Shown here: piece after piece, positions 3,273-7,323 of the stretch
Position numbering within the stretch: the first letter of the stretch is position 1
Layout: every line of letters starts with the position of its first letter
Assembly: GCA_003153375.1 (NCBI GenBank)
Contig: PLYM01000161.1
Span: 19,839-57,661 of the forward strand
Direction: 5' to 3'
Source: Planctomycetaceae bacterium
GTDB taxonomy: Bacteria > Planctomycetota > Planctomycetia > Pirellulales > PALSA-1355
DNA length: 37,823 bases
Notes under the pieces: generated by a model
What the model saw: only the letters and a program-made list of their open reading frames with translations
Told to the model about the DNA's origin: nothing
Databases searched by the model: none
Position numbers and translations under genes: made by a program

Positions 3273-3314
3273 AAGCCCTCAGAATGCAGCCCTGCACTGA
3301 CATAAGGGCTTTTT
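3273..3314 (+). terminator. Candidate intrinsic terminator upstream of the sigma-like gene
   Basis: AAGCCCT (3273-3279) pairs with AGGGCTT (3305-3311) and the sequence runs into T3310-3314. A nested small hairpin (TGCA 3285-3288 with TGCA 3293-3296) fills the loop. The seven-bp stem followed by a five-T tract looks terminator-like, though the large loop makes it weaker than a compact hairpin. It would insulate the next gene from upstream transcription. Confidence 0.4.
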
Positions 3315-3367
3315 CGTTCCGCTCATGACGCCCGATTGAAGGGCGCCATGCTCGCCCAGGCATTGTG

Positions 3368-3421
3368 CCCGGGCGGTTGTGTTTACCCACATGACCGCCC
3401 GGGTGGGCGGTCTCTTTCTTT
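3368..3421 (+). promoter_or_regulatory. Attenuator-like leader with two mutually exclusive hairpins
   Basis: Hairpin A pairs CCCGGGCGGT (3368-3377) with ACCGCCCGGG (3394-3403), with an inner TGTG/CACA extension. Hairpin B pairs GACCGCCC (3393-3400) with GGGCGGTC (3405-3412) over a GGGT loop, followed by the pyrimidine run TCTTTCTTT. The two share bases 3394-3400 and cannot form together. Immediately after hairpin B comes the ribosome-binding site AAGGAGG (3422-3428) of the gene starting at 3438. This is the geometry of an antiterminator/terminator or of a switch that hides the ribosome-binding site. The pairing is seen directly; a regulatory role is inferred. Confidence 0.5.
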
Positions 3422-3437
3422 AAGGAGGTCGTCCCCC

Positions 3438-4091
3438 ATGATTTCTATCGTCAAACAGTCGCATCAGGTCAAAAAGGCTCAAGGGAACGTACGGTTTCTC
3501 GAAATGCTGCCAAGAATTCGCCGTCAGGCGCGTCTGGCCTTTCGCCGATTTTGTCCCGAGCGCAAAGACGAACTGGTTCAAGAGGTAGTGGCCAACGCCT
3601 TTTGCACATTTGTAGCACTAGTCCACTGCGGCAAGGCCGACGTCGCCTACGCCACGCCGCTGGCCAACTATGCGATTCGCCAGGTTATTGCCGGCCGACA
3701 AGTCGGCACGAAACCAAACCGTCGTGACGTCCTTTCGCCAAAGGCTCGTGCAGACTATGGGATCGTTGTCGAACGGCTGGACATGTTTGACGAAAAGCAA
3801 GGTGAATGGCGCGCCGCACTGGTTGAAGATCGTTGTGCCACGCCGGCGGACATCGCGGCAGCGCGGATTGACGTGGCGACCTGGCTTCATTCACTCACCC
3901 AGAGGAATCGCCGGATTGCCAAGGCACTGGCCAGGGGTGAAACCACGAGCGATGTAGCCCAGCAGTTCAAGTTGAGCTCGTCGCGAATCAGTCAGATCCG
4001 CGACGAGCTGAAGACGAGTTGGGAGAGCTTCCAGGGAATATGCCCAGCGGTTCAGCGTTTCCAGTGCCCCTATCAGCCAACTGCACAGTGA
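3438..4091 (+). CDS. Sigma-70-like / HTH DNA-binding protein of planctomycete type
   Basis: This is a 217-residue soluble protein. The N-terminal half (MLPRIRRQARLAFRRF, KDELVQEVVANAF) resembles sigma region 2 helices. The C-terminus (about residues 155-200: RNRRIAKALARGETTSDVAQ, then LSSSRISQIRDEL) is a clear helix-turn-helix of sigma region 4 type. The middle (VLSPKARADYGIVVERLD, CATPADIAAARIDVATWL) matches a form I associate with a paralogous family in planctomycete accessory regions. The start is set by the near-perfect AAGGAGG nine bases before the ATG at 3438; the frame is open further upstream, but that part overlaps the leader hairpins. It could be an ECF-like sigma factor or a sigma-derived regulator; the target is unknown. 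It stands alone in a less GC-rich stretch, which suggests horizontal acquisition. Confidence 0.7.
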   Translation: MISIVKQSHQVKKAQGNVRFLEMLPRIRRQARLAFRRFCPERKDELVQEVVANAFCTFVALVHCGKADVAYATPLANYAIRQVIAGRQVGTKPNRRDVLSPKARADYGIVVERLDMFDEKQGEWRAALVEDRCATPADIAAARIDVATWLHSLTQRNRRIAKALARGETTSDVAQQFKLSSSRISQIRDELKTSWESFQGICPAVQRFQCPYQPTAQ

Positions 4092-4173: not shown

Positions 4174-4314
4174 ATGTACATGTTCATCGTCGTCTTGATC
4201 TTTATCGTGCTGGCCGTGGCTGCATGGCTGAGCGCTCCCACCGAACACCGCCGCCGCAACGGTTGTCGGTGTCCACGGCGCTGCGCTTGCCGTGGTCATT
4301 TTCACCGCCGATAG
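4174..4314 (+). CDS. Possible small membrane peptide (46 aa)
   Basis: An open frame of 46 codons begins with a strongly hydrophobic segment (MFIVVLIFIVLAVAAWL) and continues with a basic, Cys-rich tail (RRRNGCRCPRRCACRG). AGGAG at 4165-4169 is four bases from the ATG at 4174 and ten from a second ATG at 4180. The hydrophobic start and ribosome-binding site argue for a real membrane peptide. The tail composition argues against it, or suggests a frameshift: another frame continues with a second hydrophobic stretch (TVVGVHGAALAVVIFTA) up to the palindrome. No family is recognised, so this may be a remnant of a decayed gene. Confidence 0.3.
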   Translation: MYMFIVVLIFIVLAVAAWLSAPTEHRRRNGCRCPRRCACRGHFHRR

Positions 4315-4362: not shown

Positions 4363-4404
4363 CAAGCAGCTCCCCCGACGAGGACTCGTCGGGGGAGCTG
4401 CTTG
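4363..4404. repeat. 20-bp perfect palindrome with 2-base centre
   Basis: The left arm 4363-4382 (CAAGCAGCTC then CCCCGACGAG) and the right arm 4385-4404 are perfect reverse complements separated only by GA. As RNA or single-stranded DNA it would form a very stable hairpin with a GGAC tetraloop. No T-run follows on either side. It lies in a non-coding, accessory-looking stretch. It may be a mobile hairpin repeat, a terminator lacking a U-tract, or a recombination or binding site. Confidence 0.75.
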
Positions 4405-4752
4405 AAGTGGGCTCCCAGACCAAGCATGATTCAACACCGCCGGTGATCGAAGCGAACGTCAGTGGCATCGCCGCCTGTTGAGTCTGCCAGATTTGATCTC
4501 TCATCTCCAAGCGAAGAGTCATTGCAGCGCGGCTAGCACCCTGATTAGCCGGATCACACCGGGTCGACAACATGCTGAACGGCAGGATCCTCACACACGC
4601 AATGCTGGCAGGGAACCACTTCGTGTAGCAGAGTGTAGTTAATCCCCCCTGAAACCGCCGCGATTGGCCGAAGTTACGCGGATGGCGCGGAGCTGGTGAA
4701 TCCGTGCTTTTATGGGATTTTTGTCGCTGATCCAGCCGCTAGGCTCCGTTTG
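4405..4752. other. Non-coding stretch between palindrome and acidic-protein gene
   Basis: About 350 bases hold no open frame with coding character on either strand and no recognisable RNA. The base composition is more AT-rich than the flanking core genes. The minus-strand frame 4202-4594 spans the palindrome but has no family resemblance. It is probably intergenic or decayed sequence. Confidence 0.4.
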
Positions 4753-5712
4753 TTAATCGTTGTCGTCGATCTTGGCTTCGATCAGCTTGTCGATGCGCGT
4801 CGCCACGCGCTCGATCGCCTCGTTGGCTACCAGTTCCGCTCCCTGAACCGTCACCTCCAGAAACACCCGCGGAGTCGATGCACCTTCGCCCCCTTGTTGC
4901 TCAAGTGGAATCGGCAGGTAGTTCACCCTCGGCGCGGGCCGTGAACCGCCGGTCCGCGGGGCAACGCGCTCTCCAGGCGAATCCGCGAATGGGCCTTCGT
5001 CGGGTGCTTCCCCTGGCGCGATCGTGATCTTGATCAAGTCATTCGGCCGTACGACGGATTCATCGGCAGGATCGCCTTCGTCGGCTGGTGCGTCCGCGCC
5101 ACTGTCCTGCTCGTCAAACCCATCGCCGTCACTGGCCGGTTGGATCGATGCGAAGTCGTCAGACAAGGTATCGCCACCACTCTCGGTGGGAAAATCGCTC
5201 TCAGACGAGATGTCCGACACGCTGTCGGCCATTGGGCCGGGGAAGGCATCTGAGGAACCTGACAAGTCGTCAGGCAAATCCGGCGCCGCTGCGGATTCGT
5301 CAACACACAGTGCATCCCCCGTGGCGAAATCCGCGCTATCGTCGAAAAGCTCCGGCAACCCGTCTTCGGAATTCTCAGGCTCGTCGTTCGTATCATTCGC
5401 GTCGTCGAAATCTCCGCTCGCGCCGTGCACCAGTCGCAACGCGGCATCGACCTGGTGCTTTTGTTCCGCGGCATTTCTTTTCAGCGGCTGTAAGGGGCGT
5501 CCGGCTTCGTTCGCCGCATCGCGGGCATTAGTGGGCTGGTTGTCGTCCAGTCCAAACTTCCATTCTTGGAAACCGGCTGACGAAGAAGCGTGCCGAATCA
5601 GCAGCGTGCACGCTGTTAACACCGATCGTGCAGGGGCGACTTTAGCAATCGCCCGACGGAATTGCGCTATGTCAAATCGGCCACTTGACAAGCAGGGCGC
5701 TGAGCAGCGCAA
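4753..5712 (-). CDS. Hypothetical acidic, Asp/Ser/Glu-rich protein
   Basis: This 319-residue frame is not recognised. Residues 1-95 are mixed, with a basic start. Residues about 100-240 are low-complexity and strongly acidic (runs such as DFDDANDTNDEPENSEDGL and DEQDSGADAPADEGDPADES). The C-terminal 80 residues look folded, ending in VFLEVTVQGAELVANEAIE and then RVATRIDKLIEAKIDDND, a strand plus helix. There is no clear signal peptide or membrane segment. The only upstream start is a TTG at 5712 with GGTGA six bases before it; no ATG occurs until the acidic region. A Ser-rich 278-codon frame runs antisense, but the minus frame is preferred because its C-terminus has normal protein composition. 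The gene is 36 bases downstream of the amidohydrolase and may be co-transcribed. Existence is fairly likely; function is unknown. Confidence 0.5.
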   Translation of the reverse strand: MRCSAPCLSSGRFDIAQFRRAIAKVAPARSVLTACTLLIRHASSSAGFQEWKFGLDDNQPTNARDAANEAGRPLQPLKRNAAEQKHQVDAALRLVHGASGDFDDANDTNDEPENSEDGLPELFDDSADFATGDALCVDESAAAPDLPDDLSGSSDAFPGPMADSVSDISSESDFPTESGGDTLSDDFASIQPASDGDGFDEQDSGADAPADEGDPADESVVRPNDLIKITIAPGEAPDEGPFADSPGERVAPRTGGSRPAPRVNYLPIPLEQQGGEGASTPRVFLEVTVQGAELVANEAIERVATRIDKLIEAKIDDND

Positions 5713-5748
5713 CGAATCACCATCGACAAAGGCTCGCGCGGCGCCGAT

Positions 5749-7323
5749 CTACGCCTTGAAACGCAGCGCCCTGCCCGGCTGCTCGGGTCCGCCGACCGCA
5801 ACCGGCTCGCCGTGGGCGATGATCGAGACGCCGTTGACTAGCACGTGCTCGATGCCTTGAGAGGGCTGGTGCGGATCGTCATAGGTCGCGCGGTCGACGA
5901 CCGTGTTGGCCTTGAAGAGCACGACGTCGGCGAAGGCGCCTTCGCGGATCTCGCCGCGATCGGTCAAGCCGAATCGCTCGGCGGGAATGGCGCTCAGCTT
6001 GCGAACGGCCGACTCGAGTGAAAACAACTTGCGGTCGCGCACCAAGGGACCGAGGATCCGCGGCGCCGAGCCCCAGACGCGCGGGTGGACTTGTCCGTCG
6101 GCGAAATAGATGCCGTCGGTGCCCAGCATGAACTTGGGATGCTGCAAAAAGGGCTCGATCCAGGCGTCGTCGCCATTGTGCAAGACGCTGAGCGCCGCCA
6201 GCCCCTCGTCGATCAGCAGATCGCACAGCGCCTCGGCCGGCTCTCGGCCCGTGTGGGCCGCGTATTGGGCGAGCGTGCGGCCCACGTGCGGAGCGTTGGC
6301 TTTCGTGGCCACCCAGGCCAGCGAAATCTGCTCGGGCGTAACCTGGAAACAAGCCAATAGCGTCGCCAGCCGCTCGCGCACCGCCGGATCGCGCAGCCGC
6401 GCGATCGCCGCCAGCGGCCCATCTTCCCAAACCTCGTAGGGAAGCAGGTAGTTGAACATCGTCGAGCCGGGCAGATACGGATAGATGTCGAACGAAAAGT
6501 CGACCTCGTGCACCGCGGTCCGATCGACGTAACTCAGAATCGCTTCGGCCTCTTCGGGCGAGCCGGCCTTGAGATGCGAGATGTGAACCGGCACGCCGCC
6601 ACGCCGGCCGATCTCGACGGCCTCGCGCACGCCTTCGAGCGTGCCCTTCTTGTAGCGCACGTGCGTGACGTACAGCCCGCGCCAGGGAGCTAGCGCCGAG
6701 GCGACCTCGACCAATTCGTCAGTGGTGGCAAAGCACTCGCTGATGTAATCCAAGCCGGTCGACAGTCCGACGGCGCCAGCGTCCATCGCTCGTTCGATCT
6801 CATGGCGAATGATTTTGAGCTGCGAGTCATCGAGCGGCCCGCGCCGCCAGCCAGCTGCTAACACACGCACATTGGCATAGGGTATCTCGGCGATCACGTT
6901 CTGCGCGGCCCGCCGGTCGAGCAGCGCCAAATAATCGGCAATCGTCCGCCAGCCCTGATAGTCGGCTTGTTCGAGCCCGTTGAGCGCCCGCAGATAGTGA
7001 AACCAATCGCGATAATTCTCCGGCGTGACGGGCGCATAGGAGATGCCGTCGCTCATCAGCACTTCGCTGGTGATTCCCTGGCTGGTCTTGGCGACCAGGT
7101 TCGGAATCTTCAACAGCCAGCCGTCGCTGTGCGTGTGTACGTCGACAAAGCCCGGCGCCACGATCAGACCTCGAGCGTCGATCGTGCGCCGCGCCGTGGC
7201 GCCGGCCGCCGGCGGCAACAACGCAGCAATGCGATCGCCCGAGATCGCCACGTCGGCCGCCCTGCGCGGCGCGCCGCTGCCATCGATGACCGTGCCACCC
7301 TGAATCAACACATCGAAGAACAT
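5749..7323 (-). CDS. N-acyl-D-amino-acid deacylase family amidohydrolase
   Basis: This 524-residue cytoplasmic metal-dependent hydrolase belongs to the D-aminoacylase branch of the amidohydrolase superfamily, which removes acyl groups from N-acyl-D-amino acids; the actual substrate cannot be told. Visible features are the N-terminal beta-sandwich segment (FDVLIQGGTVIDGSG) and the metal motif FVDVHTHSD (His63 and His65). Later come YVTHVRYKKG and VPVHISHLKAG with two further His ligands, and LGTDGIYFADG with the catalytic Asp. Where classical D-aminoacylase has a metal-binding Cys (GNCG), this protein has MSDGISYAPV (Asp about 92), a variant seen in a related subgroup. The ATG at 7323 is chosen because the family starts at MFFDVLIQGG and GGTGG lies upstream; the open frame extends 14 codons further. 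The gene lies 99 bases after the propeller gene on the same strand and may form an operon with it. Confidence 0.9.
   Translation of the reverse strand: MFFDVLIQGGTVIDGSGAPRRAADVAISGDRIAALLPPAAGATARRTIDARGLIVAPGFVDVHTHSDGWLLKIPNLVAKTSQGITSEVLMSDGISYAPVTPENYRDWFHYLRALNGLEQADYQGWRTIADYLALLDRRAAQNVIAEIPYANVRVLAAGWRRGPLDDSQLKIIRHEIERAMDAGAVGLSTGLDYISECFATTDELVEVASALAPWRGLYVTHVRYKKGTLEGVREAVEIGRRGGVPVHISHLKAGSPEEAEAILSYVDRTAVHEVDFSFDIYPYLPGSTMFNYLLPYEVWEDGPLAAIARLRDPAVRERLATLLACFQVTPEQISLAWVATKANAPHVGRTLAQYAAHTGREPAEALCDLLIDEGLAALSVLHNGDDAWIEPFLQHPKFMLGTDGIYFADGQVHPRVWGSAPRILGPLVRDRKLFSLESAVRKLSAIPAERFGLTDRGEIREGAFADVVLFKANTVVDRATYDDPHQPSQGIEHVLVNGVSIIAHGEPVAVGGPEQPGRALRFKA

Follow-up and report, generated by a model that had tools for sequence, protein, structure and literature searches.

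A conserved leader with two alternative folds, a candidate translational switch, precedes a sigma-like gene and unrelated genes in planctomycetes

The window analysed here, a stretch of 37,823 nucleotides from a Planctomycetaceae bacterium (contig PLYM01000161.1), carries on its plus strand a gene for a divergent ECF sigma-like protein of 217 amino acids (3438–4091), defined by its open reading frame and by profile and fold searches. An earlier note, made from the sequence alone, had called this gene sigma-like, a label that is weak but consistent. TIGR02937 (sigma70-ECF) matches 19 of 20 family members, with the window protein at 24.5 bits against a cutoff of 42.9, and the Pfam matches were weak and limited to a C-terminal helix-turn-helix. 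An AlphaFold model of medium confidence (mean pLDDT 67) retrieved mainly sigma factors at the top of a fold search, with weak scores (E 0.013). A possible second gene of the unit (4174–4314, plus strand) encodes a 46-amino-acid protein, hydrophobic in its N-terminal half and rich in Arg and Cys in its tail; a close relative lies 3' of the closest paralogue (C273), and its association with the switch proposed below is uncertain. Also 3' of the sigma-like gene, at 4364–4405, is a near-perfect palindrome of very high stability, AAGCAGCTCCCCCGACGAG/CTCGTCGGGGGAGCTGCTT, which no T-run follows; an 85-nucleotide stretch at this position folds at about −51 kcal/mol. The window copy consists of an intact leader and gene and a small downstream reading frame among unrelated neighbours.

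Two mutually exclusive helices had been proposed upstream of the gene, and base-by-base reading found both, each with perfect complementarity. The 10-bp helix joins CCCGGGCGGT (3368–3377) to ACCGCCCGGG (3394–3403), and the 8-bp helix joins GACCGCCC (3393–3400) to GGGCGGTC (3405–3412). They are followed, as the note had described, by the pyrimidine tract TCTTTCTTT (3413–3421), the ribosome-binding site AAGGAGG (3422–3428) and the ATG of the sigma-like gene at 3438. The predicted fold of 3340–3450 has an energy of −60.2 kcal/mol, compared with a mean of −38.6 for shuffled sequences (s.d. 3.6; z = −6.1; 0 of 200 shuffles), and the larger hairpin in it is a 12-bp helix (3371–3382/3389–3400). Two further helices extend the arrangement. 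One pairs 3353–3362 with 3366–3375 and rivals the 10-bp helix from the side opposite to the 8-bp helix; the second, present in the lowest-energy fold, pairs 3405–3417 with 3422–3434, plus 3401–3403 with 3435–3437, and so places the pyrimidine tract opposite AAGGAGG.

The leader can therefore be described as a plus-strand chain of five segments, A to E (3353–3437), connected by four overlapping helices, A:B, B:C, C:D and D:E, in which each inner segment has two possible partners. Segment A (3353–3362) pairs with the 5' part of B (3366–3375) with one mismatch. Segment B (3366–3384) pairs with A through 3366–3375 or with C through 3371–3382, and contains a near-invariant core, GCGGTTGTGTTT, at 3373–3384 (alignment columns 38–49). 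Segment C (3389–3400) pairs with B over 12 bp or, through 3393–3400, with D over 8 bp. Segment D (3405–3417) pairs with C through 3405–3412 and with E along its whole length; folding, covariation and a swap test all mark its tract, 3413–3417, as the anti-ribosome-binding-site strand. Segment E (3422–3437) comprises AAGGAGG and the spacer. In the predicted alternatives, B:C with D:E buries the ribosome-binding site, and A:B with C:D frees it. In the lowest-energy fold of the window, the 5' part of the leader forms a different hairpin from A:B, which is what occupation of B by C would predict. The leader does not appear to be coding, since the distance from B to the ATG falls randomly with respect to frame (25, 18 and 17 leaders for the three values modulo 3). 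About 40 bases 5' of segment A, at 3275–3314, is another hairpin followed by TTTTT, which is common to related copies in the same genome and looks like the terminator of an upstream transcript.

We next consider the leaders of homologous genes in other planctomycetes, where the earlier note had placed a check. The leader precedes most full-length genes of the sigma-like family, and both of the helices first described proved conserved and covarying, so that the lack of conservation named there as a refutation did not occur. In an alignment of 49 distinct leaders, the core GCGGTTGTGTTT and the C and D arms were the most conserved parts. Cells were paired at 96.6% for B:C, with double changes at 5 of 12 pairs, and at 96.3% for C:D, with double changes at 5 of 9. 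For D:E, 86.3% of cells were paired and 16 carried double changes; the number of D:E pairs with double changes was not above that of shuffles (200 of 500). For each of these three helices none of 500 shuffles reached the observed percentage paired, number of double-change cells or score, a comparison uncorrected for relatedness. Sliding the partners by one to three columns reduced pairing to 39–60%; the covariation score of C:D (0.128) was close to that of one slid control (0.118). A column-by-column alignment of A:B was not possible, and this helix was tested by swapping: a leader's own A fitted its own B better than did the A segments of other leaders in 42 of 49 cases. Likewise, the D:E duplex formed with a leader's own D beat that with a swapped D in 38 of 49 leaders, and its own E beat shuffled E in 47 of 49. 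Judged from these alignments, the structure of the leader is conserved and covaries, and its position upstream of start codons is constant. Selection on B:C and C:D, which cannot coexist, points to two alternative folds rather than one.

On this basis we propose, with a probability of roughly 60%, that the leader acts in cis in the mRNA to switch translation between two states. When closed, with B:C and D:E formed together, it would reduce translation by burying the ribosome-binding site and, in some relatives, the bases as far as the start codon. In the open state, A:B and C:D would form, leaving E free so that translation could start. Energy predictions favour the closed state in 42 of 49 leaders, with a mean difference over all leaders of 6.8 kcal/mol and a difference of 12.2 kcal/mol in the window; the default should thus be off, and something must open the switch. 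A signal acting on B may tip the balance. The likeliest opener would be either a host-encoded factor that recognizes GGUUGUGUUU, a near-invariant stretch, or the order in which the RNA folds as it is transcribed. GGUUGUGUUU, which comprises the most conserved bases, lies outside A:B and C:D and would be unpaired in the open state, an arrangement that suggests a trans-acting factor. An antisense RNA carrying the exact B core elsewhere in the genome was ruled out as a partner, as all 14 exact copies belong to leaders or leader fragments.

The same helices could instead be read as a transcription attenuator, with C:D as an intrinsic terminator, B:C as the antiterminator and A:B as the anti-antiterminator. 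The helix topology is right for this, a pyrimidine-rich tract always lies 3' of C:D, and terminator scores are positive in the window (d = 12.1) and in 12 other leaders. However, the score falls below zero in the remaining 36 of 49, so that the GC-rich hairpin with a U-tract seen in the window copy is not a feature of the family, in which eight bases of the tract contain on average 3.5 U and 3.0 C. Moreover, the tract pairs and covaries with the ribosome-binding site, and termination at C:D would turn both states off, leaving neither to express the gene. We therefore prefer the translational switch and regard attenuation of transcription as unlikely. Where the earlier note had suggested an attenuator or a switch, the covariation of both helices argues for a switch in the leader RNA, and transcription attenuation is not supported for the family.

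Attenuators of the trp and riboswitch types oppose A:B plus C:D to B:C, and this leader has the same topology; unlike them, it has no consistent U-tract, no leader peptide and no conserved aptamer beyond a ten-base core. In ermC-type translational attenuators, a relay of mutually exclusive helices ends in one that buries the ribosome-binding site. Sequence and covariation indicate a similar relay here, with the ribosome-binding site in the last helix and freed by the alternative fold, but this leader lacks a leader peptide, has one extra upstream segment and stands before several unrelated genes. A mechanism in which a ribosome stalls on a leader peptide would share this relay but is very improbable: upstream reading frames ending at A or B occur in 3 of 54 leaders, compared with 7.2 expected, and a leader peptide was accordingly rejected. 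An RNA thermometer or a simple folding timer would need no trans-acting factor, as D:E would melt or the open state would exist briefly after synthesis. The burial of the ribosome-binding site by D:E, the ability of A:B to form before C is made and the restriction of conservation to a short core would all fit such a device. A thermometer, however, needs D:E alone and leaves A:B, B:C, C:D and GGUUGUGUUU unexplained, and the helices are very stable; we consider both mechanisms improbable.

To follow the leader beyond sigma-like genes, we used a covariance model, the E-values of which are rough. It found the leader before genes for a protein of about 73 amino acids with the motif AVA.ATGEDVR.I.RRGFSL.DP..VNFDPEPD, a DUF932 protein (PF06067) and one that matches GajA weakly. 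One locus (L081 in genome G020, 4923–6663) has three tandem leaders, one for each of three successive unrelated genes; a hydrophobic and Arg-rich reading frame similar to that in the window lies 3' of the leader genes there. Eighteen leaders of other genes, which had played no part in deriving the structure, keep B:C and C:D, except for the DUF932 leaders, in which that alignment misplaces the D arm. In L237 and L235, B, C and D have changed together (in L237 to GGGGUGG, CCAUCC and GGGUGG, respectively). D:E is kept with different sequences, such as GUCGUUUUC/GAAAACGAU in L239 and GAGCGGUCUUUC/GAAGGAUUGCUC in L232, and the leader's own duplex beats a swapped D in 14 of 18 leaders and a shuffled E in 15 of 18. 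The ~73-amino-acid family was seen in the class sampled (L234–L240, L100, L104, L106, L107 and L169). The one member scanned had no Pfam or NCBIfam match, and the family usually adjoins one of about 81 amino acids where the upstream gene was read.

The note had also suggested conditional expression of a sigma-like factor. The conserved and covarying helices are consistent with conditional expression, but the leader is not specific to sigma-like genes. The sigma-like protein itself is disfavoured as the common regulator, as leaders precede genes with no sigma-like gene adjoining (for example, L235–L239, judged from adjoining genes rather than whole genomes). Because we saw no sigma-like gene close to some of the leaders, a factor recognizing GGUUGUGUUU would probably be encoded by the host.

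Both the leader and the sigma-like family are patchily distributed and often present in several copies. With the covariance model, 32 of the 396 genomes sampled from the order had the leader. Among 392 sampled across the phylum, matches were confined to the same class, which we infer to be Planctomycetia from the named records Rubripirellula, Fuerstiella, Schlesneria and Planctomyces. A protein profile placed the sigma-like family in 42 of the 396 genomes and 34 of 144 genera, some by weak partial matches only. The window genome holds 15 leaders at E < 1e-5 and one cut by a contig end, many of its copies sit at contig ends, and it has 18 matches to the protein, some truncated. An exact-core scan of about 85,000 species returned 21 hits, 16 of them in planctomycetes, each with a strong model match. 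The hits outside Planctomycetota (L090, L091, L095, L103 and L105) were taken to be chance, since the best model score among them, 14.9 bits (E = 4), was not credible. The core was absent from viral contigs, and we found no plasmid or phage record encoding the sigma-like protein.

Many leader-bearing genes have mobile-element genes close by. Genes near the leader genes include phage-type integrases, a recombinase with a zinc ribbon, a terminase and a PD-(D/E)XK nuclease, as well as JAB/ThiF genes, CDC48-like AAA genes and a DrmD-like helicase. JAB, ThiF/E1-like, CDC48-like AAA and small uncharacterized proteins recur beside leader genes (L075, L076, L144, L234 and L237) and possibly form a ubiquitin-like conjugation cluster. 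In genome G157 the model gave 11 matches at E < 1, and ten of these are strong leaders. Ten copies of leader and gene compared in this genome (L156, L157, L160–L165, L227 and L228), each about 900 bp, are 95–99% identical and differ in their flanks; the stretch that all ten share begins at segment A, as if a transcribed unit had been shuffled behind different promoters. The multi-copy units, the boundary at segment A in several G157 copies and the nearby integrases could also reflect a DNA-level element, its inverted repeats serving as an operator or as a single-stranded site for recombination or mobility. Against this, 42 of 49 leaders retain the wobble pair U43–G62, as would suit an RNA element; in addition, the ribosome-binding site forms the outer arm, and the position beside the start codon is constant. 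We judge a DNA element to be a poor prospect and retain the translational switch.

None of 4,227 Rfam families matched the window or seven related loci at the gathering score, which ruled out a known Rfam family. We found no description of this leader in the literature. The only published candidate that might equal it is the Rhodopirellula-1 motif, known here from one table row (Weinberg 2010, PMC2864571) that gives it as a candidate cis-regulatory RNA of Planctomycetes, marked uncertain and with no Rfam accession in the table. That row also lists Proteobacteria, in which we did not find this leader. No record titled Rhodopirellula appeared in the exact-core scan, a weak argument against identity. 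The leader has the appearance of a previously undescribed RNA switch family.

More tentatively, it may represent a new class of regulatory RNA, in which one leader, read through GGUUGUGUUU by a host-encoded factor, would place unrelated genes near mobile elements (sigma-like, ~73-amino-acid, DUF932 and GajA-like) under one translational signal across Planctomycetia. To our knowledge, few regulatory RNAs have been described in planctomycetes. Here, a complete two-state switch appears to be written in covariation, common to unrelated genes, present in many copies within one genome and without an Rfam entry. It offers a handle on the role of a divergent sigma-like family, on the possible silencing of genes close to mobile elements in planctomycetes and on the signal that opens them.
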